64,000 nucleotides of DNA, taken from contig CAJOFR010000004.1 of the NCBI GenBank assembly GCA_905234195.1, positions 1-64,000 of the forward strand, in the 5' to 3' direction. The stretch is from an uncultured Selenomonadaceae bacterium (GTDB lineage Bacteria > Bacillota > Negativicutes > Selenomonadales > Selenomonadaceae). Of this stretch, positions 26,824-37,943 are shown piece after piece. Positions within the stretch are counted from its first letter, which is position 1. Every line of letters starts with the position of its first letter. Below the pieces are notes generated by a model. It did no database searches, was not told the origin of the DNA, and saw nothing but the letters and a program-made list of their open reading frames with translations. Position numbers and translations under genes: made by a program.

Positions 26824-26851
26824 GCACTTCCAAAATCGGGAGTGCTTTTTT
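26824..26851 (+). terminator. Intrinsic terminator after LPP20-like gene
   Basis: GCACTTCC and GGGAGTGC form a stem followed by six T. It sits about 10 bases after the stop codon and at the 3' end of the convergent Gx-family gene. Confidence 0.75.
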
Positions 26852-27329
26852 ATTTCGGCAACTTAACAGAGTTCGCGAGCTTGCCAATAAAAATTCCGCT
26901 GACAATGCCGAAAATTCCCAGCGCACCAAAATAAAAAAAGACACTGACACTTTCCATCAAAACCGCCGCGCAAAAAATTTGTCCGAGATTATGAAAAAAG
27001 CCTCCCGCCGCACTCACCCCGACGACAGAAAATTTTTCACTGCGTTTTAAAAAAATCATCGCCGCGAAACTCAAAAGCCCGCCACTTAAGCTGAAAAAAA
27101 TTATTGTCGGACTTCCCGAAAAAATCACCGACAAAAAATTTCGCAACAATAAAATTATTAACGCGTCGACTTCATTTTCAAGTTTGTACAGCGCGAAAAC
27201 CGTAACGACGTTCGCCAAACCCAACTTCATGCCCGGCAAAAAAAACGGCGTCGGAAATATTCCTTCAAATAAAAAAAATGTGAGCGACATCGCCGTTAAA
27301 ATTGAAATTCTCGTCAATCTGCGCGCCAT
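26850..27329 (-). CDS. Gx transporter family membrane protein (EetB-like)
   Basis: A 159-residue, strongly hydrophobic protein with about five membrane segments and the motif FFLPGMKLGLANVVTVFAL typical of the Gx/heptaprenyl-diphosphate-synthase-component-I family (ECF S-component-like fold). I recall this family paired with a NusG-II-domain protein as EetB/EetA in Listeria-type flavin electron-transfer loci; that link needs checking. The ATG at 27329 is preferred, but TTG/GTG codons up to 27347 are possible. It overlaps or abuts the NusG-II gene and is the last gene of the iron/flavin locus. Confidence 0.6.
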   Translation of the reverse strand: MARRLTRISILTAMSLTFFLFEGIFPTPFFLPGMKLGLANVVTVFALYKLENEVDALIILLLRNFLSVIFSGSPTIIFFSLSGGLLSFAAMIFLKRSEKFSVVGVSAAGGFFHNLGQIFCAAVLMESVSVFFYFGALGIFGIVSGIFIGKLANSVKLPK

Positions 27330-27330
27330 G

Positions 27331-27651
27331 TCAATCACCAATCTCAATTAAAATTTCGTGAGGAACACAGGCAATTATTTCGCCCACATTTTTTATCGCG
27401 CCCGCCTTCACGCAAATTTTGTCCGGACAATCGGCGGAGATGACCGCGATTTTTTTATCTTTCACCTCTATAATATTTTTTCCGGCGTCCGTCTCAAGCG
27501 TGAAGATTTTATTTTCGTTCAAGTCAATTTTGCGAAAGACCTTCCCCGAAATTTTCACGACGGCAAAATTTTTATCCCCGCCCGCAAAAAAAATTGGCAC
27601 AAGTGAAAATAAAATCAGTACCGCAATTAACGCGGCGTCATTTTTTTTCAT
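27331..27651 (-). CDS. NusG domain II protein (EetA-like)
   Basis: A 106-residue protein with one N-terminal transmembrane helix (ALIAVLILFSLVPIFFAGG) and an extracytoplasmic beta-rich domain ending SADCPDKICVKAGAI...ACVPHEILIEI, the NusG domain II (DUF) pattern with two cysteines. It has nothing to do with transcription factor NusG beyond fold. Start at 27651 is chosen after GAGGCGG; the coding region overlaps the FMN-binding lipoprotein end by 14 bases. Likely partner of the Gx-family protein. Confidence 0.7.
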   Translation of the reverse strand: MKKNDAALIAVLILFSLVPIFFAGGDKNFAVVKISGKVFRKIDLNENKIFTLETDAGKNIIEVKDKKIAVISADCPDKICVKAGAIKNVGEIIACVPHEILIEIGD

Positions 27652-28090
27652 TTTGCGCCGCCTCAACCGCCTTTTTCGTCGTCTCAACAAATTGGCTGTA
27701 GGAAATCGACGCGCCCGAAATTGCGTCAACCTTTTTTAAATCCTGCGTCTCGACAAGTTGTTGGGAATAAGTTGCAATCGCTTTAACGGCAACTTGCGCC
27801 TTTTTGTAATCGCCCTCGCTCAAAAGGGAGCCGTAGCTTTCGTCTTTGACATTGCCGAATAAATCAAAGCCGGTAAATTTCGCGCCGGTTATCCTGTGAT
27901 TTTCAATCGTCAAAGTCAGCGTGCTGTGTCCAAGTTTTTCGTCGCGGGAACTTTCTGCGGTGTAGGTGCCGTCGTTCGCGCTCGACAGGTCGATTTTATT
28001 TTCGGGCGGCTTAGAAATTTTTTCAGAATCGCCGCCGCAACCGCTAAGCAAAATTCCCGCAGATAAAATCCCCGCCAAAAATTTTTTCAT
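27638..28090 (-). CDS. FMN-binding domain lipoprotein
   Basis: A 150-residue lipoprotein. The signal ends LSAGILLSGCGGD, so Cys18 is the lipidation site. The FMN-binding domain spans about residues 40-145; YTAESSRDEKLGHSTLTLTIENHRITG is its opening strand region and DAISGASISY matches the ApbE target motif D-x-x-[ST]-G-A-[ST], with Ser in the acceptor position. Expected to carry covalently bound FMN in the periplasm and pass electrons. The ATG overlaps the ABC ATPase stop. apbE, whose product would attach the FMN, is at 37029. Confidence 0.85.
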   Translation of the reverse strand: MKKFLAGILSAGILLSGCGGDSEKISKPPENKIDLSSANDGTYTAESSRDEKLGHSTLTLTIENHRITGAKFTGFDLFGNVKDESYGSLLSEGDYKKAQVAVKAIATYSQQLVETQDLKKVDAISGASISYSQFVETTKKAVEAAQNEKK

Positions 28091-28788
28091 TCCAATTTTC
28101 CTCCATAACCGGCGATTGCCTGATGATGATTGTCGTAAGTTTTTTTTATGTGCCCGTGCTCAATCACAATGCACCGCTCCGCCTCTTTGCCGACGTCCGC
28201 CGAATGTGTGACGGTAATAATCGTGTGTCCTTCGTCGTGCAGTTCGTGAAAAATTTTCATGACAAGATTTTGATTTGCCTCGTCGAGATTTCCCGTCGGC
28301 TCGTCCGCAAGAATCAATACCGGATAATTTATCAGCGCGCGCGCAATGCAAACCCTCTGTTGCTCGCCGCCCGAAAGCTGGCTGGGCAAATGCGTTGCTC
28401 TGTCTTCGAGACCGACACGCTTTAACGCCGCCATTGCCTCTTCGTTATCGGGCAGGCTGTGATAATATTGCGCGACCATGACATTTTCAATCGCCGTCAA
28501 ATAGGGGACAAGGTGAAACTGCTGAAAAACCATCCCGATTTTTTCGCGGCGAATCTCCGTCAATTTTTTGTTGTCGACTTCCGCCAAAGAAATTCCGTCC
28601 AAAATTATTTCGCCGTCCGTCGCGTGATCCATGCAGCCGATAATATTCATGAGCGTCGTTTTGCCGCTGCCCGAAGGTCCCATAATCGCAACCCAATCGC
28701 CCTTTTCGACGCTGAAGTTAATATTTTCCAACGCCTTAACCTTGCCGTTGTAAATCATCGAAACATCTTTTAATTCGAGTAAAGCCAA
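28087..28788 (-). CDS. ABC transporter ATP-binding protein, LolD/MacB type
   Basis: A 233-residue ATPase with Walker A GPSGSGKTT, signature LSGGEQQR, Walker B LILADEPTGNLD and switch histidine in TVTHSADVG. It is of the type that works with FtsX-fold permeases, two of which precede it. In the Campylobacter P19 locus the equivalent trio accompanies the iron permease; whether it moves iron, a chelate or a protein is unknown. It overlaps the FMN-binding gene by four bases. Confidence 0.92.
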   Translation of the reverse strand: MALLELKDVSMIYNGKVKALENINFSVEKGDWVAIMGPSGSGKTTLMNIIGCMDHATDGEIILDGISLAEVDNKKLTEIRREKIGMVFQQFHLVPYLTAIENVMVAQYYHSLPDNEEAMAALKRVGLEDRATHLPSQLSGGEQQRVCIARALINYPVLILADEPTGNLDEANQNLVMKIFHELHDEGHTIITVTHSADVGKEAERCIVIEHGHIKKTYDNHHQAIAGYGGKLE

Positions 28789-28790
28789 AA

Positions 28791-29936
28791 TTATTCACCC
28801 CTCAAAACTATCGCCGGGTCGACTGCCGTCGCGATACGCACCGGAATCAAACTCGCTACGCCCGTCACCAAAATTGAAAGCACGATTGACAGCAGAGAGA
28901 TCGACGCCGAAAAAAATATCCCGCGCCCGAAAACTTGCACGCTGACACTTTCCGCGAATAAATATCCAAGCCCGCTCCCCAAAAGTCCGCCGAAAAATCC
29001 GAGCAAACAACCTTCGCCCAAAAATTCCCGAACAATATTTTCGTTAGCCGCGCCCAATGCTTTTTTCAATCCGATTTCTTTTCGCCGCTCCGTGACGACT
29101 GCCATCATCGTCGTCGTCACACAAATTAACGTCAAAATTAAAACAATCACCGTGACCAACAAAACCAAAACTTGCAGCTTGCTCAAGACACTGAATTCTG
29201 AATTGGCGATTTGCTGAACTGTTTGCGGCTGAATTCCGTCGACTTCCGCCGAAATTTTTTCTTCGATTAATTTTAAATTGTCACCCTCCGCAACGACGCT
29301 GACTTGAGCGATACTGATTTTGTCCGGCTTCTCCACGAGGCTTTGAAGGTCTTCGAGATTCATGAAGGCGAACTCCTCTTCCTTGCCGCCCGTCGAAACA
29401 ATCCCGACGACCGTATAATTTTTAACGGCTGAACCTTCGCCGGAAGAAATTTTTATTTCGTTGCCGATAATCTCCACCGGCTCATATGGCGACAAAATTT
29501 TTGCCAGCTCCGCGCCCACCAAAACTTCGCGCTCATTTTTCGCGGGGTATCGTCCGTTAATTTGCCAATACGGGCTGACTTTTTGCAGTTGTTCAAAATC
29601 CGTGCCGCCCGTCAAAATATACTGTTTGTTAATTTCAAGACGCTCGTACAAAAATGGAGCAACCCCGACGACTTCATTGCCCTGCAAAATTTTTTCGACC
29701 TCTTCCAGATTTTTTCCGTCGAAGGTAGAATTTTCTCCGGAAGGTATCAACAAAAGATTCGCGCCATACGCTCTGAACTCCCTGCCCAATTGTTGAGGGA
29801 CTTCGCGATAAACCGTAACCATTCCCGAAATTATCGTCGCCCCGACTGCAACCGCGATTAACGCAACCAACATTCTAAGCCGCCGCCGCAACAACGAATA
29901 AAAAATCATGCGCAGGAAAAATTTTAATCTGTTCAT
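28791..29936 (-). CDS. FtsX/MacB-type ABC permease (second of pair)
   Basis: A 381-residue permease with the MacB layout: an N-terminal helix (LRMLVALIAVAVGATIISGM), a large extracytoplasmic domain of about 200 residues, and three C-terminal helices with the FtsX signature RRKEIGLKKALGAANENI. It resembles its neighbour at 29940 and probably forms a heterodimer with it, driven by the ATPase at 28087. It ends two bases before the ATPase start. Confidence 0.88.
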   Translation of the reverse strand: MNRLKFFLRMIFYSLLRRRLRMLVALIAVAVGATIISGMVTVYREVPQQLGREFRAYGANLLLIPSGENSTFDGKNLEEVEKILQGNEVVGVAPFLYERLEINKQYILTGGTDFEQLQKVSPYWQINGRYPAKNEREVLVGAELAKILSPYEPVEIIGNEIKISSGEGSAVKNYTVVGIVSTGGKEEEFAFMNLEDLQSLVEKPDKISIAQVSVVAEGDNLKLIEEKISAEVDGIQPQTVQQIANSEFSVLSKLQVLVLLVTVIVLILTLICVTTTMMAVVTERRKEIGLKKALGAANENIVREFLGEGCLLGFFGGLLGSGLGYLFAESVSVQVFGRGIFFSASISLLSIVLSILVTGVASLIPVRIATAVDPAIVLRGE

Positions 29937-29939
29937 GCT

Positions 29940-31208
29940 TCACCGCCCGTGTAAAACTTCCGCCGGCTGCAACGATAATAACATTCTTATCGCCGGCAAA
30001 CTTCCCGTCAACAAAATCAAAATCATCAGCACCGTGACAATAGGGACGACGACAATATTATTTGCGATAGCCGAGCCAAAAACCGTCGTGCCGATTATTT
30101 GCGCAAGCCCCAAACTCAAAAAATATCCGACGACGCCGCCGACGCAACCCGCGATAAAAATTTCCGTCAAGATTAAAATTATCACGCCAAAATTTGTTGC
30201 GCCAATCGCCTTCAAAAGTCCGAGTTCGCGGCTACGCTCCATGATATTTGCACTGACTAAATTGGAAACACCGAGCGCGGCAGAAAGTAAACTCAAAATT
30301 GTTATCAACAACATCAACAGTTGAGTTTTGTCAAGAATTTTTCCTTCAGACTCCGCAATTTGTCTGACGGGACGCGCAGAAGAATTCGCGATAACCTCTT
30401 CAATCTGATAGGCAATCGCGCTGACATACGCCGTGCAGTACCAAATTTCGCGCTCCTGCTGGCTAAGCATATCGGGATTGGCGGCCGCCTTGCGAGCAAG
30501 CTCATTTTCCGGCGTGGTTATCGCGCTGACGTCGATGCTGTCGATTTTTCCCGGCAAGTTCAAAATTTTTTGCATGACAGCCAAATCCATAAGCAGTTGA
30601 TTATCTTCGTCACCGCCGCCCGTCACAATCCCACTGACCTTTAACGCGCCCTGCGTGCCGTCAAAATTTTTGTAACCAATCGTGTCGCCGACCTTGATAT
30701 TTTTCGCCGCCGCCAGTTTTTGTCCGACAAGAACTTCATTATTTCCCTCGACAGGATAATTTCCGGAAACTTGCCACCAGGATTTCATTTCTATATCGCC
30801 CGTCGAAAAAGTTTCACCCGTCGGCAAAGTCATTTCGTGTTCAAACCACGTGCCCACCGCAGGAATTTCCGAGCCGTCCGCCAGCGTCAAATTTCCCGCG
30901 AGCGAAGGAGCAAACGCCACAATATTATTCGTCCAGAAAATCGTTTTTATTTTGCCGACGTCCGCTTCGTTGAGATATTCGCTGGTATTTTCCAGCCCGT
31001 ATACATCTTTCAAGACGGCGGAATTTTTCGGGGTAACTGTGATATTCGCGCCGTAAGCCTTCAGCTCTTGATTGACTTTGTCGCCGACGTCAAACATAAC
31101 ATTTAACATCGCCGCCGCCAGCGAAACACCGAGCGCAACAGTCAGCGCAATCAAGGCAAAACGATTTTTTTGACGAACAAGCGCGCCCTTGACCATTTGC
31201 CAAAACAT
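29940..31208 (-). CDS. FtsX/MacB-type ABC permease (first of pair)
   Basis: A 422-residue paralogue of the next permease, with the N-terminal helix FALIALTVALGVSLAAAML, a larger periplasmic domain, and the C-terminal FtsX region starting ERSRELGLLKAIGATNFGVI. Both permeases share the word YGAN near residue 55 followed by short beta strands. Position between the DUF4405 gene and the second permease fits the known P19-type gene order. Confidence 0.88.
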   Translation of the reverse strand: MFWQMVKGALVRQKNRFALIALTVALGVSLAAAMLNVMFDVGDKVNQELKAYGANITVTPKNSAVLKDVYGLENTSEYLNEADVGKIKTIFWTNNIVAFAPSLAGNLTLADGSEIPAVGTWFEHEMTLPTGETFSTGDIEMKSWWQVSGNYPVEGNNEVLVGQKLAAAKNIKVGDTIGYKNFDGTQGALKVSGIVTGGGDEDNQLLMDLAVMQKILNLPGKIDSIDVSAITTPENELARKAAANPDMLSQQEREIWYCTAYVSAIAYQIEEVIANSSARPVRQIAESEGKILDKTQLLMLLITILSLLSAALGVSNLVSANIMERSRELGLLKAIGATNFGVIILILTEIFIAGCVGGVVGYFLSLGLAQIIGTTVFGSAIANNIVVVPIVTVLMILILLTGSLPAIRMLLSLQPAEVLHGR

Positions 31209-31223
31209 TTTACCACCTCCAAT

Positions 31224-31457
31224 TTATTTTTTCTCAAGGAAATTTTTTACCGCAGATTTTATCCAGCCCGCGTGCCAAAAAATATGGAGAATCACGCCGA
31301 CCGCCATAATATAGCCGCTGTAAATGTGCAAAAGTCGGAATGGACGCCGCGCCTCTTTGCCGCCGGGGATCATGTGAAAATCCATCATGACGCCCGTCAC
31401 GAAACAGACCAACGCGCAAATAAAAAGTATCACGTCCAGCGTAAAATTTTTCTTCAT
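31224..31457 (-). CDS. DUF4405 family small membrane protein
   Basis: A 77-residue protein with two transmembrane helices (about 7-25 and 45-63). Histidines in MMDFHMIPGG, LLHIYSGYIM and ILHIFWHAGW lie at membrane edges, the pattern of cytochrome-b-like DUF4405/DUF4405-related proteins, so a haem-mediated electron path across the membrane is plausible but unproven. It sits between the DUF2318 gene and the ABC permeases. Confidence 0.7.
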   Translation of the reverse strand: MKKNFTLDVILFICALVCFVTGVMMDFHMIPGGKEARRPFRLLHIYSGYIMAVGVILHIFWHAGWIKSAVKNFLEKK

Positions 31458-31472
31458 CTAAAAATTTTCACC

Positions 31473-32726
31473 TCACTGAAAAATTTTAGCGTTCTTTTCG
31501 AGTTCAGCTTGAGGAACTTTTAATTTCCCGTCTTCAATTTTGTACTCAATCGGAATGGGATTGCAGCCGCCGCGCGTGCCGATTGTCGCCTTGTTCATTT
31601 GGACGTCGCAGAGTTTGCAGATAACTTGGTTGTCGCGCTCAAAATAACCCGTCGCGCCACAAATTTCGCAAGCGTCAAGCCCGACGCCGTAAGCCGAGCC
31701 GCCCTTCAAAATCACGATATAACGAACGTTCTCGCCGGTCGAAGCGTGATAAACAAATCGGTGCAAGTGTCCGTCCTTGACAACCTCCAAATCAACGTCA
31801 ACAGAATTATTTTCAGCCTCGACGGGAATTGCGGGAACAATCTCTTCTTCCTGGTTGGCAATGTAGCTGCCCGCCGTCGAAGTCGTCGTCATCAAAAACA
31901 GCGCGGCAATAACTCCGGCCCCCCAACGTCTTTTGTGAATTGCTCCCGCCAAAATTTTTCTGTACTCGGCGGGATTATATTCGGGAGATTTTTCGGGGCG
32001 CGGCTGGGAAAATAAAGTTATCGGCACGACGAGTATTGCCACGAAGATGACGAAAATTAAAGAGCTTGAGTGATTTATTATCGGCGACATTAATTCCATC
32101 CAAAATTCGCCCGTCAAAAATCCGCGCGCCATTAAAATTTGAATCAAGAAAATTATTTGCTGAATCATGCACGCCGCAATTTGCACGGCGAAGACAAATT
32201 TTAGGCGCGTGTTGTTCAGCGCGTCCGCCGCCTTATAAACTAAAAAGCTGCTGATAAGTGCGAACAATGTGCCGAAAATGAATCCCAAAATTTTCATCAA
32301 GAAGTTTGTCGAAAAATAATCGCCGACTGCCGAAATCACCGAGCCGACCGGAATTAGCCACAGCTCGAAGCCGTGATACAGGAAGAGCGAAATTACTACG
32401 GCGGTCACTGAAAATTTTAGCGGCTTGCTGACATTTTCGCGCGCGCCTCTGAACAAACACAAAAGTATCACCGTTTCGCCGACAAGTGCGATTATTGTTG
32501 CGAGCCCTTCCAACATTTCGCGGCTGACTGCATTTCTCGTGCCGACGCGGACAGCAATTACAAATATCGAAAGCCAAAATCCCCACTTCATCGCGGCGCG
32601 GAAACTTTTTTTGTAGACTTCCGAAGGTAGCCGCCGCAATATTACCAGCAAAATTCCGAGCGGCACTCCCAGCGTTAAGCCCTCCTCCATTGCCGGGATA
32701 AATTGTTGCAGAAAAGTTTGGAACAT
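31473..32726 (-). CDS. DUF2318 domain membrane protein of P19-type iron locus
   Basis: A 417-residue protein. The N-terminal two thirds contain about eight transmembrane helices and an FTR1-like opening (FIPAMEEGLTLGVPLGILL). After a ninth helix (residues about 270-290) the C-terminal DUF2318 domain carries cysteines CEICGATGYF and CKLC plus RGGCNPIPIEY, a candidate metal or Fe-S site outside the membrane. Campylobacter Cj1660 and its neighbours provide the known parallel; the domain is thought to take part in iron handling or electron supply. Confidence 0.85.
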   Translation of the reverse strand: MFQTFLQQFIPAMEEGLTLGVPLGILLVILRRLPSEVYKKSFRAAMKWGFWLSIFVIAVRVGTRNAVSREMLEGLATIIALVGETVILLCLFRGARENVSKPLKFSVTAVVISLFLYHGFELWLIPVGSVISAVGDYFSTNFLMKILGFIFGTLFALISSFLVYKAADALNNTRLKFVFAVQIAACMIQQIIFLIQILMARGFLTGEFWMELMSPIINHSSSLIFVIFVAILVVPITLFSQPRPEKSPEYNPAEYRKILAGAIHKRRWGAGVIAALFLMTTTSTAGSYIANQEEEIVPAIPVEAENNSVDVDLEVVKDGHLHRFVYHASTGENVRYIVILKGGSAYGVGLDACEICGATGYFERDNQVICKLCDVQMNKATIGTRGGCNPIPIEYKIEDGKLKVPQAELEKNAKIFQ

Positions 32727-32774
32727 AACTTCACCTCACCACGTATTGACAAATTTTATCATTTCGCCTAAAAG

Positions 32775-32808
32775 TAAAAAGCCCTGCCGAATTTTTCATC
32801 GACAGGGA
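32775..32808 (-). terminator. Intrinsic terminator after p19 gene (possibly bidirectional)
   Basis: CCCTGCCGA (32782-32790) pairs with TCGACAGGG (32799-32807). Runs of A before and T after allow termination on either strand. It isolates the P19 gene from the DUF2318 gene downstream. Confidence 0.75.
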
Positions 32809-32811
32809 TTT

Positions 32812-32874
32812 TTTGAAGTGGCAGGGAACAAGAGATAACGCAGAATAGAAATCCCTTTCCACTTGTCCCTTAAA
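32812..32874. repeat. Purine-rich imperfect inverted repeat, example 2
   Basis: AAGTGGCAGGGAACAAGAGATA faces TCCCTTTCCACTTGTCCC across a short AT spacer, using the same words as the elements at 15.46 and 60.36 kb. It directly abuts the P19 stop codon. Confidence 0.45.
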
Positions 32875-33432
32875 TCACCATTTGCGCGGAACGTAATTGA
32901 AAGTCCACTTCATGACCACAGGTTCTTTCCAAAGACGACCGGGAACGCCGGTATCTGAATCGGTATGAAGAGCGTAGCCTTCGGGGGCGTGGAATTTAAA
33001 TTCGCAATCGTAAGTACCGGCACCGTGCATCTTTACATTCGCGCCGTAGTGAGGACCATCATCCGCGCTCATCGGCATAAAAGTTCCGGTGATAGGACCT
33101 TGAGGGTCGCCGCCGCGTTTCGTGAATTTGTATTCGACGCGCATATAAGGAATCCATTCGCCGACGCCGAATCCGCACTCATTGCCCTCCGTCGCGTGAA
33201 TGTCCGTTTCAATATGAATATCAGCTTTGTCCGGCGAAAGCATCATGCCCTGCGGCTCCATAGGCACCGGCTGGAAATACACGAGCGCAACTTTGAAATG
33301 ATTTACCTTGTCTTCAATTTCGTCGCCGATAGGATATTCCTGGAACGCCAACGCGTCGGGACTATAAGCGAAGAGACTGAACGCCGCCGCTCCTGCCGCC
33401 AAAAATGCCTTGACCTTTTTTGTATTAAACAT
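32875..33432 (-). CDS. P19/Tp34-family periplasmic iron transport protein
   Basis: A 185-residue exported protein (signal peptide ending YSPDALA, mature near residue 30). It matches the Fe2+ transport protein family containing Campylobacter P19, Treponema Tp34 and E. coli FetP: MMLSPDKADIHIETDIHA supplies the Met/His/Glu metal ligands, and GWIPYMRVEYKF-like and APEGYALHTD segments follow. It binds copper and iron in the periplasm and feeds an FTR1-type permease, encoded just upstream. It appears to be its own transcription unit, with a terminator on each side and a Fur-like box upstream. Confidence 0.92.
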   Translation of the reverse strand: MFNTKKVKAFLAAGAAAFSLFAYSPDALAFQEYPIGDEIEDKVNHFKVALVYFQPVPMEPQGMMLSPDKADIHIETDIHATEGNECGFGVGEWIPYMRVEYKFTKRGGDPQGPITGTFMPMSADDGPHYGANVKMHGAGTYDCEFKFHAPEGYALHTDSDTGVPGRLWKEPVVMKWTFNYVPRKW

Positions 33433-33491
33433 TGTAACAACTCCTTAAAAATTTTTATATGTCAGCGGGATTTTCCCCGCGTACGGCAAAT

Positions 33492-33506
33492 TGAAATTTA
33501 TTATCA
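33492..33506 (-). promoter_or_regulatory. Candidate Fur box upstream of p19
   Basis: On the minus strand this reads TGATAATAAATTTCA. Against the 7-1-7 Fur consensus TGATAATNATTATCA the left half is perfect and the right half has two mismatches. It lies about 60 bases upstream of the P19 start codon, downstream of the FTR1 terminator. Confidence 0.45.
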
Positions 33507-33515
33507 CTGCATGTT

Positions 33516-33543
33516 TAAAAATAAAAGCCGCCACACGAGCGGC
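33516..33543 (-). terminator. Intrinsic terminator after FTR1 gene
   Basis: GCCGC and GCGGC (33527-33531, 33539-33543) form a stem followed on the minus strand by TTTTATTTTT. It ends the exbB-to-FTR1 unit. Confidence 0.7.
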
Positions 33544-33560
33544 ATAACCTGCTCAAAAAT

Positions 33561-34766
33561 TTACGCTTCGACGAGCTCCGTCTGTTGTTGTCGACGCCGA
33601 TAAATAATCGCCGCTATTCCCAAAACCAACAGCGCGACTTGCACGCCAAAAGTTTCGACAGTCGGATAAATTCCCAGCACGTCGATTGTCGGTATCGGCA
33701 AAGATTCAATCGGGGTTTGTCCGATAATTCCGCCCTCTTGCAGTTCACGGATACCGCCGCCCGCAAATGTTATCGCGAGCAAGTACATTAGGACGCTTGT
33801 GAACAGGAAGAACGGTTTCAGCGGGATTCTCAACACGCCATGTTGCAGCGCGAAAAACAAAATCGCCACGACGACACAGCCCGCAAAAAATCCTCCCCAA
33901 ATCATTTCAACATCAGTCGACGAATTATTAAACAACGCCTGATAAAAGAGAATTACTTCCGCGCCTTCACGATAGACCGCCAAAAAAGCCGCGAACGCCA
34001 ACGCTTTTGCCTTGCCGGTTGTCATGCTTTTATCGACCATGCCTTGAATATATTTCTTCCAAATTTTTGCATCTGCCTTGCCGCCCAGCCACGCGCTTGT
34101 CGCGACCAAAACGAAGACCGCAAATAATGCCGTTGCTCCTTCCAAAACTTCACGACCTGCGCCCGCCGCCGTTGATTCAAAAACCGTTGCGAAAAGATAT
34201 GCCGTCACAAAACTTGCAATTATCGCCGCAATCATCGCGTTATAAACGGTGTCCAAATGTTTTTCGTTGCCGCTCTTTTTCAAGTAAGCGATTATCGCCA
34301 CGAGAACGAGGACTGCCTCCAGACCTTCGCGAATCAAAATCAGAAAGGCGGGAATGAACGACGCCCAGCCGCCTTGACTGCCGTGCGCGCCCTCCATAGC
34401 CGAAACATTTTCGTTGACCATTTCAATTAACAGCGCGGACTCTTCCTGAACTTTTTCGAGCGGCTCACCTTCAAGCATCGCCTTCTTGACTTTGTAGAAT
34501 TGATACTCGGTGACGCCGACTGCCTTGCTGGAAACGGTGACGCGCAACGCGCCCTCCATGCCTTCCTTCTCGTAAATCCCGTAATATGCGTCGTTAATTT
34601 TTTCCTTCGCGGCGCGCCCGTCACCAGTCTTGTAAATTTCTACAGCTTCGTTTACAGTCTTTTCGATTTGCCCGGCAAGTTCCTGCCACTTCGGCGCGGC
34701 ACCGGCGGGCTGAAAATTCGCTAAGACCAACAGAGCCGCCACGACGACGAACAAAAATTTTCTCAT
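33561..34766 (-). CDS. FTR1 family high-affinity iron permease
   Basis: A 401-residue permease with an N-terminal signal (ending QPAGAA), a periplasmic helical domain of about 110 residues and seven transmembrane helices. Both RExxE iron-binding motifs are present: LIREGLEAVLVL and VYREGAEVILFY. This is the FetM/EfeU/Cj1658 type. The ATG overlaps the stop of the secreted TonB-domain gene (ATGA). A terminator follows before the P19 gene. Confidence 0.95.
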   Translation of the reverse strand: MRKFLFVVVAALLVLANFQPAGAAPKWQELAGQIEKTVNEAVEIYKTGDGRAAKEKINDAYYGIYEKEGMEGALRVTVSSKAVGVTEYQFYKVKKAMLEGEPLEKVQEESALLIEMVNENVSAMEGAHGSQGGWASFIPAFLILIREGLEAVLVLVAIIAYLKKSGNEKHLDTVYNAMIAAIIASFVTAYLFATVFESTAAGAGREVLEGATALFAVFVLVATSAWLGGKADAKIWKKYIQGMVDKSMTTGKAKALAFAAFLAVYREGAEVILFYQALFNNSSTDVEMIWGGFFAGCVVVAILFFALQHGVLRIPLKPFFLFTSVLMYLLAITFAGGGIRELQEGGIIGQTPIESLPIPTIDVLGIYPTVETFGVQVALLVLGIAAIIYRRRQQQTELVEA

Positions 34767-35119
34767 TTAAAATCTTTCGCCTCGAACTTAATCATGTACC
34801 AAACTTCCATAGGATTGCCTTCCTTGTCGACGGCAGGTTTAAACTCCCACTTCGACGCCGCCTCCATTGCGATTTTATCAATCTTCGGACGCCCGGAAGA
34901 ACGCATTACAACTGTTTTGATAACTTTTCCTTCAGCGTTGACTGTAGCCGAGATCGTCACCGTGCCGCTGTAATTTAAATCTTTTTCAAGGTCTTTAGGA
35001 TACACTCTGGATTTTTTTATAGGCGTCGCGGGTTTTCCCTGCTCTGCTGCTTCCGCCAACTGAACTTGTGCCGCAAATACGACAACCAACGCTAAAAATA
35101 ATGCCAAAACTTTTTTCAA
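34763..35119 (-). CDS. Secreted stand-alone TonB C-terminal domain protein
   Basis: A 118-residue protein made of a cleavable-looking signal peptide (MKKVLALFLALVVVFAAQVQ, cleavage near AEAA) and a single TonB C-terminal domain (VYPKDLEKDLNYSGTVTISA... EAASKWEFKPAVDKEGNPM). It has no proline-rich spanning region and probably no lasting membrane anchor, unlike a normal TonB. It lies between tonB and the FTR1 gene and is coupled to the latter. It may bind the plug of an outer-membrane receptor or cap TonB in the periplasm; this is inference. Confidence 0.75.
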   Translation of the reverse strand: MKKVLALFLALVVVFAAQVQLAEAAEQGKPATPIKKSRVYPKDLEKDLNYSGTVTISATVNAEGKVIKTVVMRSSGRPKIDKIAMEAASKWEFKPAVDKEGNPMEVWYMIKFEAKDFK

Positions 35120-35135
35120 GATAACCGCTCCTTTT

Positions 35136-35867
35136 TCAAAAATCTTCGGGCTTAAATTCTATTTGAGTTTTCATTTCCTTAGGGTTGCCCTCTTCGTCCA
35201 CGAACGGTTCAAAAACCCAACCGGACGCCGCCGCTTCAGAAACAAGGTTAATTATATTGCCCCTCTCGTCATTGCCGCCGCCGCGCCGAATCTCAATGGT
35301 TTTAATCTTGCCGTTCGTGCCTATGGTTATCGCCAAAACAATCTTGCCGCCATTCAAAACAGGTCTCTCTTTCACGATACCGCTTTCAATCAGCTGATTG
35401 ACAACGTCTTTAGGAAAAACTTTCGTGAGAACTTTCAGCTTGCCTTTGGAATCGTCGTCGGGCTTTTCCTCTTCGGAAGGTTTATTCTCTTCGGCGGGAG
35501 GTTTATTTTCTTCCGGCTTCGGCTGTTCGACGGGCGGTTTAGGTTGATCCACCGGAGGCTTGACGGGCTCCGGCGGTGGCGGTGGCTCCTCCTTGACGAC
35601 CGGTTCAGGTATCGGCGGAATTTCGATTGGCGGGAACTCAAAAGCGGGCGGCGAATCTTCCGGCAAAATCTCTTCGACGGGCGTCACTTCCTCGACGGCG
35701 GGAGATTTTTCGGCAACTTCCACGTCAACCCATTCTGTCTCTTGAACTTCCTGCTCCTTCGGTTCGGCTTTCATGTTTGACCAAGCTGACGAAACTGCAA
35801 ACAATATTACGACGTGAAAAATTATCGACGCCAATATCGTTATTCGCCAATGCGGCTGGTACTGCAA
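35136..35867 (-). CDS. tonB: TonB energy transducer
   Basis: A 243-residue protein with an N-terminal membrane helix containing the H-residue typical of TonB (ASIIFHVVILFAVSSAW), a long acidic and proline-rich span (about residues 50-150, with PPPPPEPVKPP and VDQPKP-type repeats) and a C-terminal domain (LVSEAAASGWVFEPFVDEEG). It couples inner-membrane proton motive force, through ExbB/ExbD, to outer-membrane receptors. No TonB-dependent receptor is encoded in this window. Confidence 0.92.
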   Translation of the reverse strand: MQYQPHWRITILASIIFHVVILFAVSSAWSNMKAEPKEQEVQETEWVDVEVAEKSPAVEEVTPVEEILPEDSPPAFEFPPIEIPPIPEPVVKEEPPPPPEPVKPPVDQPKPPVEQPKPEENKPPAEENKPSEEEKPDDDSKGKLKVLTKVFPKDVVNQLIESGIVKERPVLNGGKIVLAITIGTNGKIKTIEIRRGGGNDERGNIINLVSEAAASGWVFEPFVDEEGNPKEMKTQIEFKPEDF

Positions 35868-35881
35868 TTCATCATCTCCAA

Positions 35882-36295
35882 TTAATTTTTGACTTCCGTC
35901 GCCATCGAAACATGCTTGACGCCGGATTTTTTCAGAATCTCCAGGACGCCGACAACCTGTTCATACTTAACGGATTTATCGCCGAGTAGCAGAAAAACCG
36001 TCTCGCTGTCCGCCGCAAGAGTCGCGTGAATTTTTTGCACAAGCTGTTGATTCACGACAATCTTTTCATTATCGTAAATCACCTCTCCGTTTGAAGTGAC
36101 GGTGACTGAAATTACATTGGGGCGGGTTTCCTGTTGCGCGGTTTTGGATTGCGGCAGGTTCACCTGAAAGGAATTTGTCTGCACCATGTAAATCGTGCTT
36201 ATCATGAAGAAAACCAGCAGGAAAAGCATGATATCAATCATCGGGATTATCATGACGAGCGGTTGTTTGTTTTCGCGGAAATCACGGCGTCGCAT
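35882..36295 (-). CDS. exbD: Biopolymer transport protein ExbD
   Basis: A 137-residue protein with a single transmembrane helix that contains the essential aspartate (IPMIDIMLFLLVFFMIST) and a periplasmic domain. It is part of the TonB motor. The ATG at 36295 follows GGAGG by nine bases, inside the final codons of exbB; the frame is open upstream only because it overlaps exbB. Confidence 0.93.
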   Translation of the reverse strand: MRRRDFRENKQPLVMIIPMIDIMLFLLVFFMISTIYMVQTNSFQVNLPQSKTAQQETRPNVISVTVTSNGEVIYDNEKIVVNQQLVQKIHATLAADSETVFLLLGDKSVKYEQVVGVLEILKKSGVKHVSMATEVKN

Positions 36296-36899
36296 TTTTA
36301 TTTTCCTCCAGACTGCCGAGCACAATCGCGATAACCCTCTCAAATTTTTCAAGCAGCTCGTCAAGTTTTTGCGCAAAGTACGTGTGAACAATCAGCGCGA
36401 AAATCGCCACGCAAAGACCCGTTGCCGTTGCTATCAGAGCCTCGCCAATTCCGCCGGTTATTGCGAGCGGCTGACCGGATTGCAAATTAAAAATGTTAAA
36501 CGATTCAATCATACCGGAAATTGTGCCGAGCAAGCCGAGTAGCGGAGCCATTGTCACTATCATTGAAAGATAATTCAGACGCGCCCGCAGATTCATCGCC
36601 GCTTCGCCGTAGACCGCGTCCATTGCAAGTTCGGCGTCCCTGCCCTTCGCGGCGGCGTCCAGTCCTGCGCCGGCTATCGCCGCGAGAAAATTTTTTTCGC
36701 TCCTGCAAAAACTGACACTTGCCTCAAAATTATTCTGCTCCAGTCTGCTCTTAAGACCCCGCAAAAAATTTTCGCTGTCGTGCGCGGCGTAACTGTAAAA
36801 TCTGAATCTTTCAACCCCAATCGCGAAAACAGCAACGGAACTTATCACCAAAAGATACATCACCGGTCCGCCCTTGTTGAAAAATTCGGCAATCTCCAA
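36282..36899 (-). CDS. exbB: Biopolymer transport protein ExbB (MotA/TolQ/ExbB family)
   Basis: A 205-residue proton-channel subunit with three transmembrane helices: an N-terminal one (VMYLLVISSVAVFAIGVERF), and a second and third in the conserved region MIVTMAPLLGLLGTISGMIE and IATATGLCVAIFALIVHTY. It is the first gene of the iron-uptake operon and diverges from apbE, with a promoter and a Fur-like box upstream. Confidence 0.93.
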   Translation of the reverse strand: MEIAEFFNKGGPVMYLLVISSVAVFAIGVERFRFYSYAAHDSENFLRGLKSRLEQNNFEASVSFCRSEKNFLAAIAGAGLDAAAKGRDAELAMDAVYGEAAMNLRARLNYLSMIVTMAPLLGLLGTISGMIESFNIFNLQSGQPLAITGGIGEALIATATGLCVAIFALIVHTYFAQKLDELLEKFERVIAIVLGSLEENKNATP

Positions 36900-36954
36900 A
36901 ATAAAATCTCCCCAATCAAGATTAACAATAAAAAAAGATTCTCACTTGCGAATT

Positions 36955-36982
36955 ATTATAACACTCTTTCTAAAAAAATCAA
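36955..36982 (-). promoter_or_regulatory. exbB promoter with overlapping Fur/PerR-like box
   Basis: On the minus strand TTGATT (36982-36977) and TATAAT (36960-36955) are 16 bases apart. The sequence TTATAATAATTCGCA (36961-36947) overlapping the -10 box matches 11 of 14 defined positions of the Fur 7-1-7 consensus. Iron control of the operon is therefore plausible. Confidence 0.45.
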
Positions 36983-36995
36983 GTTGGTCTATAAT
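36967..36995 (+). promoter_or_regulatory. Probable apbE promoter
   Basis: TATAAT at 36990-36995 with a weak TTTCTA at 36967-36972 (17-base spacing), diverging from the exbB promoter. GGGAGG at 37015-37020 is the ribosome binding site. Confidence 0.4.
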
Positions 36996-37028
36996 ATTCA
37001 CCGGTTCGGTTTTTGGGAGGCAATGACT

Positions 37029-37943
37029 GTGAAATTTTTTATCGTGATTCAGATTTTTTTAACGGCTTTGATTTTTGGATGCCACAGCGAAGAAAATTTT
37101 AAGAGGAGCGAAATTTTAATGGGGACGGTCGTCAGCTTGGAGGCGACGGGAAAAAATTCTGAACGCGCGATAAATGAAAGTTTTGTTCGCCTGAAAGAAC
37201 TGGAGGAGAAAATTTTGGGCGACAAGCAAAAAATAGAACTTGCCGCCGGAAACGGTGACTTCGTGCAAATAAATCCGGAAGTCTACGAGATTTTGGAAAT
37301 CGCGCAAAAATTTTCTACACTTACCGACGGAAATTTTGATATTACAGTTGGCGCGGCGGTGGAGCTGTGGGAAAATTGTCGCGATACCAAAAAACTTCCG
37401 ACGCAAGAAGAAATTATCGCCGCAAAAAATTTAATCGGGTTTCGCCATTTAATTTTGAGGAAGTCAGATTGTTCCGCGCGGCTTGAAATTTCCGGCATGA
37501 AAATTAATTTCGGCGGGGTTGCTAAAGGTTACGGCGTTGACCTCGTGAAAAATATTTTTGAGAGTCACGGAATTAAAAGCGGCTTGATTGATTTTGGGAA
37601 CAGCACAATTTTTGCGCTCGGCGAAAAAAAAATCGGGTTGCGCGACCCCGACAAAGAAAATGATTTGCTGAAAATTTTAAACCTGCGCGACGAAGTTATT
37701 TCCACGTCGGGCGACTACGAAAAATTTTTTGTCGTCGATAATCGCCGCGTTCATCACATAATCGACCCGAAAACCGCCGCCCCCGCCGATAACGGCAACG
37801 CCTCTGTCAGCGTCGTACTCAAGGGCGGAAAAAATTCCGGCACAATCGCTGATATTTTGAGCACCGCAATTTTTGTCGGGGAGATTAATTTTTCCGGCTC
37901 GGATATCCCGCCGTTCAGTGTTTTTGACACTCCCCACGCCTAA
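37029..37943 (+). CDS. apbE: FAD:protein FMN transferase, C-terminally shortened
   Basis: A 304-residue lipoprotein (lipobox ALIFGC) that attaches FMN covalently to target proteins outside the cytoplasm. Core ApbE motifs are seen: LMGTVVSLEATG, TLTDGNFDITVGA, FGGVAKGYGVD, GLIDFGNS, HHIIDPKTAAPA and the metal-site segment TIADILSTAIFVG. The usual 30 to 40 final residues are missing; the frame ends in a hairpin resembling an IS200/IS605 end. Catalytic elements are kept, so it may still work. GTG 37029 is preferred: GGAGG lies eight bases upstream, while ATG 37023 is only two bases away. Likely partner: the FMN-binding lipoprotein at 27638. Confidence 0.8.
   Translation: MKFFIVIQIFLTALIFGCHSEENFKRSEILMGTVVSLEATGKNSERAINESFVRLKELEEKILGDKQKIELAAGNGDFVQINPEVYEILEIAQKFSTLTDGNFDITVGAAVELWENCRDTKKLPTQEEIIAAKNLIGFRHLILRKSDCSARLEISGMKINFGGVAKGYGVDLVKNIFESHGIKSGLIDFGNSTIFALGEKKIGLRDPDKENDLLKILNLRDEVISTSGDYEKFFVVDNRRVHHIIDPKTAAPADNGNASVSVVLKGGKNSGTIADILSTAIFVGEINFSGSDIPPFSVFDTPHA

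Follow-up and report, generated by a model that had tools for sequence, protein, structure and literature searches.

The 64,000-nucleotide stretch analysed here (hereafter the window; positions 1 to 64,000 of contig CAJOFR010000004.1, assembly GCA_905234195.1) comes from an uncultured Selenomonadaceae bacterium and carries, at 26850..37943, a locus that probably encodes an iron importer of the FetMP/P19 type with its own flavinylation supply line. As we picture it, the Gx protein of the locus and the genome's single detected energy-coupling factor (ECF) T-protein, working with shared ECF parts, would export flavin adenine dinucleotide (FAD), which ApbE would use to attach flavin mononucleotide (FMN) to a lipoprotein at its SGAS motif. 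The flavin lipoprotein would then take over the redox step possibly done by the thioredoxins FetE and FetF in Campylobacter, passing electrons, on the periplasmic side of the inner membrane, to P19 iron or to the cysteines of FtrD. These electrons would reach the lipoprotein from membrane quinols, most likely through a DUF4405 haem protein, and Fe(II) would enter via FTR1.

Gene calls were taken from a list of open reading frames and families were assigned by Pfam scans of the window's proteins. Both bear out the presence and position of every gene named in an earlier interpretation made from the letters alone (the sequence-only reading). All of these genes are present in one tight operon, which on the minus strand runs exbB, exbD, tonB, tonB_C, FTR1, P19, ftrD, DUF4405, ftsX, ftsX, ATPase, FMN lipoprotein, NusG-II and Gx, with apbE diverging from exbB. 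Intergenic gaps from exbB to ftr1 are at most 16 nt or the genes overlap. Larger gaps separate ftr1 from p19 (128 nt) and p19 from ftrD (148 nt), while from ftrD to Gx no gap exceeds 15 nt and the genes overlap at ATPase-FMN, FMN-NusG and NusG-Gx.

The core contains the FTR1/FetM iron permease (33561..34766, minus strand, as are all genes below except apbE; PF03239, E 2e-29), which carries REGLE and REGAE motifs, and the periplasmic iron-binding protein P19/FetP (32875..33432; PF10634, E 1e-55). The FtrD-like/FetA (DUF2318) protein (31473..32726; PF10080, E 2e-31) combines an FTR1-related membrane domain with a periplasmic cysteine domain. Two FtsX-type permeases, FetB-like (29940..31208) and FetC-like (28791..29936) by position, both match PF02687 (FtsX/MacB_PCD), and an ATP-binding cassette (ABC) ATPase (28087..28788; PF00005, ABC_tran) is FetD-like by position. 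As judged from gene order, the two FTR1 motifs and the cysteine motif of FtrD, this core together with the FMN lipoprotein is a FetMP/P19 iron system, in agreement with the sequence-only reading. The order FTR1, P19, DUF2318, two FtsX and ATPase and the same cysteine motif are found in Campylobacter jejuni fetMP-fetABCDEF (PMC6083913, PMC10783030), so the proposed Campylobacter P19-type layout holds, with DUF4405 inserted between FtrD and FtsX. In contrast to C. jejuni, the window has an FMN lipoprotein in place of the thioredoxins FetE and FetF, and adds ApbE, NusG-II, Gx, DUF4405 and exbBD-tonB. An iron role for P19 clusters is published for relatives. In C. jejuni it includes transport of iron when iron is scarce, and growth data indicate that fetM, P, A, B, C and D each matter (PMC10783030).

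The FtrD cysteine motif reads CxxC-x13-CxxC-x14-C (31563-31670), and CxxC-x13-CxxC-x14/15-C is kept in 68 of 73 loci, the window among them. The membrane part of FtrD is a distant FTR1 homolog (hhalign 94.6%, E 7e-8); by eye, it has no REGxE motifs. FtrD may thus be a non-transporting permease-like subunit fused to a cysteine-rich redox domain. Its predicted structure (predicted local distance difference test score 86.6) found no match in the PDB at E ≤0.001, which we do not take as a new fold, and its profile found no matches among PDB sequences; the FTR1 profile gave three short partial matches there, to designed proteins. Comparison of FTR1 with plasmids returned 967 records, predominantly from Escherichia and every one below 60% identity.

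The gene following the ATPase encodes an FMN-binding lipoprotein of 150 residues (27638..28090; PF04205, E 8e-6, 26.8 bits against a cut-off of 22) with a lipobox-type Cys18 and the flavinylation motif SGAS at 27707-27718. At the other end of the locus, apbE (37023..37943, plus strand; PF02424, E 3e-60) encodes an FAD:protein FMN transferase that is lipoprotein-like by eye and starts at the ATG at 37023, behind GGGAGG. ApbE, FMN_bind, NusG-II and Gx each have a single match in the whole genome (88% complete), and all four lie at the locus. The pairing of ApbE with an extracytosolic FMN_bind protein bearing a [ST]GA[ST] motif supports what the sequence-only reading had assumed, and we infer that the lipoprotein is covalently flavinylated by the ApbE of the locus. 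An FMN gene is a regular component of P19 loci in the class to which the host belongs (53/59); of the six loci without it, five run into a contig end before reaching its position, and the sixth is decaying. This is in accordance with published surveys. Liu et al. 2018 (PMC6083913) describe the first six cluster genes as conserved in 33 species from several phyla, with an FMN-binding gene at the seventh place in Firmicutes and others, and 260 P19 clusters with an FMN-binding gene were reported in 2021 (PMC8238504). The window shares with the latter the FMN-binding gene after the ATPase but differs in that its operon also encodes a haem-type protein of the DUF4405 family and a predicted subunit of an FAD exporter. 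Bifidobacterium breve bfeUO-sifABCDE has a similar layout, although the portions of that report available to us do not state P19 identity (PMC5449479). There, a screen for dipyridyl-sensitive mutants recovered both sifE (FMN-binding) and apbE, the latter interpreted by its authors as an Fe-S repair gene.

At the distal end of the operon lie the NusG_II protein (27331..27651; PF07009, E 7e-29), with a CPDKIC motif, and the Gx protein (26850..27347; PF07456, E 8e-37), a predicted ECF S-component. A hidden Markov model search confirmed that they belong to the EetA and EetB families, as the sequence-only reading had proposed, and NusG-II is the usual partner of Gx. EetB is reported to be an FAD-binding ECF S-component required to export FAD for flavinylation (PMC9973259). 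The predicted structure of the window's Gx has the S-component fold, with riboflavin S-components closest, and the genome has one ECF-T match (PF02361), on a different contig. Because EetB is published as an FAD exporter and Gx is modeled as an S-component, we read Gx as a putative supplier of FAD for ApbE.

Among the 15 annotated genes of the locus, none corresponds to ndh2, dmkA, dmkB or fmnA, which we take to belong to Listeria-type extracellular electron transfer loci; the genome was not searched for ndh2, dmkA or dmkB. Compared with Listeria EetA/EetB/FmnA/FmnB/PplA (PMC9973259), the window has in common an EetA/EetB-family pair, ApbE and an FMN lipoprotein, but lacks these four genes, has a short FMN protein and has an iron importer attached. 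The PplA model failed on the window (36 bits against a cut-off of 325). Apparent internal stops turned up in NusG-II of several genomes; the one in locus L095 proved by its coordinates to be the normal terminal stop and gives no lead to selenocysteine.

The proposed membrane electron carrier is a small membrane protein of 77 residues encoded between ftrD and ftsX (31224..31457; PF14358, DUF4405, E 1e-11, 45.6 bits against a cut-off of 26.7). Family membership and conserved histidines (H28, H44, H58 and H62 are invariant in five aligned P19-locus sequences) support the idea, already put forward from the sequence, that it may carry haem. Relatives bind haem b, and DUF4405-apbE clusters often include an FAD exporter, according to Huang et al. 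2024 (PMC10979944). As in those clusters, DUF4405, ApbE and an EetB-type exporter occur together in the window. However, the characterized DUF4405 proteins have six helices, for which 77 residues are too short, and are often found beside flavodoxin, whereas the window's protein sits inside a P19-FTR1 operon. A FezC-like dimer is possible.

Among the loci examined, DUF4405 as the gene between ftrD and ftsX is confined to Quinella-like Selenomonadaceae. It is found at this position in 8 distinct P19 loci (the window, L117, L118, L123, L054/L121, L055/L120, L058/L128 and L059/L119, where each pair is one contig, and L117 and L123 belong to one metagenome-assembled genome, MAG); the gene in L123 has an odd end. 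A DUF4405 scan found relatives with the same operon in Quinella sp. 1Q7 and in uncultured Selenomonadaceae/Selenomonadales MAGs, several of them from sheep or other rumens. The host itself is probably a Quinella-like member of the Selenomonadaceae (class Negativicutes) of rumen type. The insertion shows in the distance from ftrD to ftsX, which is 237-262 nt in the window and in L054, L055 and L059 of its genus (L058, also of this genus, ends past the DUF4405 gene), compared with at most 33 nt in the remaining measured loci except L057 (101 nt) and the decayed L061. Within named genomes, 7 of 29 DUF4405 loci are P19 loci (from the genomes of six records, L117 and L123 sharing one MAG), and the other 22 have no adjoining P19-core gene and varied neighbours. 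This looks like local recruitment of DUF4405 into the P19 operon. No PF01794 ferric-reductase-like protein was found in the window's genome, and its one NapH-like protein adjoins TlpA-like and MsrB-like genes (named by eye), because of which it probably serves another pathway. DUF4405 is our leading candidate for the membrane electron carrier that the system otherwise lacks.

Taken one step further, the locus might be a self-contained iron reductase-importer in which Gx supplies the flavin, ApbE attaches it, the lipoprotein holds it, a DUF4405 dimer feeds in electrons and P19-FTR1 imports the iron. We put this forward tentatively. Here, as in the proposal above, the course of the electrons, the reduction of iron as the goal and the donor role of DUF4405 are inferred. 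FTR1 proteins elsewhere operate with an oxidation step, and the flavin and haem parts could instead control the redox state of the FtrD thiols or oxidize Fe(II), as suggested for FetE and FetF of C. jejuni. The conserved FtrD cysteines would suit such a role; in addition, PMC10783030 reports that extracts reduced more 5,5'-dithiobis-(2-nitrobenzoic acid) when FetE/F were deleted and that FetE is similar to oxidases. We nevertheless regard this alternative as unlikely, as the host is probably an anaerobic fermenter, judging from its rumen kin, and characterized flavinylated systems, as reported, exchange electrons between pools in the membrane and the cell exterior.

Two points do weigh against the importer with a flavin supply line as we propose it. 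One is that FetE and FetF may act as oxidases in C. jejuni, at odds with a simple reductase. The other comes from L090 (788-7714) and L091 (6526-11954), loci from genomes of the same genus with no P19 match. These loci keep the window's arrangement of apbE, exbB-exbD-tonB, FMN, NusG-II and Gx, yet contain an EcoRI-methylase-like gene where the window has the entire core from FTR1 to the ATPase; the FMN gene of L090 is split. Either the module is in decay or its flavin part is usable without the importer, which argues somewhat against strict dependence of the flavin part on P19.

The attachment of NusG-Gx to P19 is recurrent. Across 300 genomes of the class, P19 was found in 57 and NusG-II in 144, and their joint presence in 44 is above chance (Fisher p 8e-7, uncorrected for kinship). 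Of these 44 genomes, 12 have NusG-II no more than 15 kb from P19, where random gene placement would give about 0.4-0.7. Linked genomes were tallied by hand; G157 (L099) was counted as linked across contig ends, its contig taken as circular, and G017, G187 and G247, whose NusG-II is among the weakest matches and which show none in their P19 stretches, as unlinked. In nine genomes NusG-II belongs to the P19 operon or directly adjoins it. The other three, of genus g73 (L096, L097 and L098), have NusG-Gx about 9 kb from P19 in a separate fumarate-reductase-type FrdA/FrdB cluster with ApbE, as assigned by Pfam on L097 alone. Counted by locus, NusG is present in 7/59 and Gx in 6/59 P19 loci of the class (the latter including a decayed copy in L055), and neither in the 13 P19 loci from elsewhere in the phylum. 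The linked arrangements vary between FMN-NusG-Gx, FMN-ApbE-NusG-Gx and FMN-Gx with a divergent NusG followed by ApbE; NusG and Gx are 4.3 kb apart in L054. A tree was built from 38 NusG-Gx pairs (of 47 NusG loci; the nine with no Gx found, including P19-linked L037 and L055, were omitted). In it the P19-linked pairs fall at three separate places, one of them inside a clade whose pairs are mostly linked to RNF; the well-supported branches require at least 4 label changes. Repeated linkage of NusG-Gx to P19 seems the simplest reading, with gains and losses indistinguishable on the tree.

This survey bears on a concern raised with the sequence-only reading, namely that Gx and NusG-II might be a vitamin transport pair or an accidental join. 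As to mechanism the former applies, whereas the 12 linked genomes speak against the latter. That Gx/NusG-II and DUF4405 are chance neighbours serving unrelated processes is accordingly very improbable in our view: the operon genes overlap, linkage stands at 12 against about 0.5 expected and at three tree places, DUF4405 keeps its position in 8 distinct P19 loci, and the genome has no other detected FMN_bind or ApbE that Gx could serve. These observations have to be set against 32 of 44 genomes in which NusG-II was not seen near P19, the 22 of 29 DUF4405 relatives apart from the P19 core, and one locus (L103) in which NusG-Gx adjoins exbBD-tonB in the absence of P19. We give hardly any credence to the electron route of the sequence-only reading, in which electrons cross the membrane via the Gx/NusG-II pair to the flavin lipoprotein; the pair does adjoin FMN/ApbE genes here and lies in or beside RNF clusters elsewhere, and NusG-II has a CPDxxC motif, but we reject the route because of the S-component fold of Gx and the published genetics, in which EetB binds FAD as an S-component and a clean eetA deletion in Listeria is reported with wild-type electron-transfer activity (PMC9973259).

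Several related loci show other arrangements. In L103 (3455-6746), NusG-II and Gx come after ExbB-ExbD-TonB, and neither an FMN gene nor a P19 core was found between them. In L082, L083, L084, L094, L100, L101, L102, L106, L111 and L115, NusG-Gx ends or adjoins RNF-type gene clusters (assigned by Pfam on one member each of three protein clusters), an arrangement published for Clostridia; the 40 NusG contexts were hand-picked, and neighbour frequencies among them are no estimate. Decaying P19 loci occur in or near the window's genus: several genes are fragmented in L061, Gx is decayed and ftsX split in L055, and FTR1, P19 and FtsX are fragmented in L117.

P19-FTR1 clusters span many phyla, and the locus bears on the question of where their periplasmic redox step obtains its electrons. 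Published P19-FMN clusters were described as having no transmembrane electron carrier, and DUF4405 would fill that place if the proposal is correct. With a flavinylation supply and a candidate haem carrier in one operon, and no FMN_bind-type client other than the FMN lipoprotein seen in the 88%-complete genome, the locus offers a clean test case. It would also tie the EetB FAD exporter to a client, P19 iron uptake, that is unnamed in the text of the EetB paper (PMC9973259; text only, not the data set), which likewise does not name FTR1. The sequence-only reading called such a combination little described, which is true of the full set, whereas papers of 2018 and 2021 already describe FMN-binding genes in P19 clusters; the new part of the finding is therefore modest. 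We found no publication combining EetB or DUF4405 with P19/FTR1, or flavinylation with P19 since 2022, in a search that covered neither supplements nor most subscription journals, and nothing on this system in literature on Quinella with iron, flavin or TonB.

Upstream of the core, the operon begins with exbB (36282..36899; PF01618, E 1e-26), exbD (35882..36295; PF02472, E 9e-25; its start inferred as the first ATG in a frame listed from 36391) and tonB (35136..35867; TonB_C weak, E 6e-4, under the cut-off). They are followed by a gene for a small TonB_C-domain protein of 118 residues (34763..35119; PF03544, E 2e-14; signal peptide judged by eye), so that two TonB-type genes are present rather than the one first named. 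Within the class, 43 of 59 P19 loci have ExbB, ExbD and TonB side by side, compared with none of the 13 from elsewhere; exbB-exbD-tonB upstream of the P19 core is thus usual in the class. The earlier claim that TonB brings iron across the outer membrane is matched by the motor genes but not by a receptor: the plug domain PF07715 had no match in the 88%-complete genome, while Escherichia coli, Caulobacter and Bacteroides controls matched (PF00593 was not searched). The genome therefore combines ExbB-ExbD-TonB and a free TonB_C protein with no detected plug domain. Negativicutes are reported to possess TonB-dependent receptors (Veillonella, PMC5491611; PMC12204202), and at 88% completeness we treat the absent plug as a question, not a result. 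Near P19, 255 unlabelled stop-to-stop frames of at least 420 residues were collected from L004-L075; none of the eight scanned (450-1200 residues, ending in F, W or Y) had a Pfam receptor domain, and three had no match at all.

Finally, weak Fur-box-like sites are found in the three intergenic gaps of the locus. The best, with 2 mismatches, lies between the FTR1 and P19 genes (33492..33506; p 0.002 by mononucleotide shuffling, as for the following), and sites with 3 mismatches are located at 32747-32761 (p 0.016) and 36947-36961 (p 0.05). However, 16 such sites occur in the full window, where 2.4 would be expected, and 10 of the 16 lie elsewhere than in the locus. Upstream of exbB, Fur-like sites of up to 3 mismatches occur in 10 of 43 regions (L034, whose region was miscut, is left out) against 18 of 314 controls, which are mostly coding, differ in composition and may contain similar miscut regions. 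Fur control of the locus is suggestive only.

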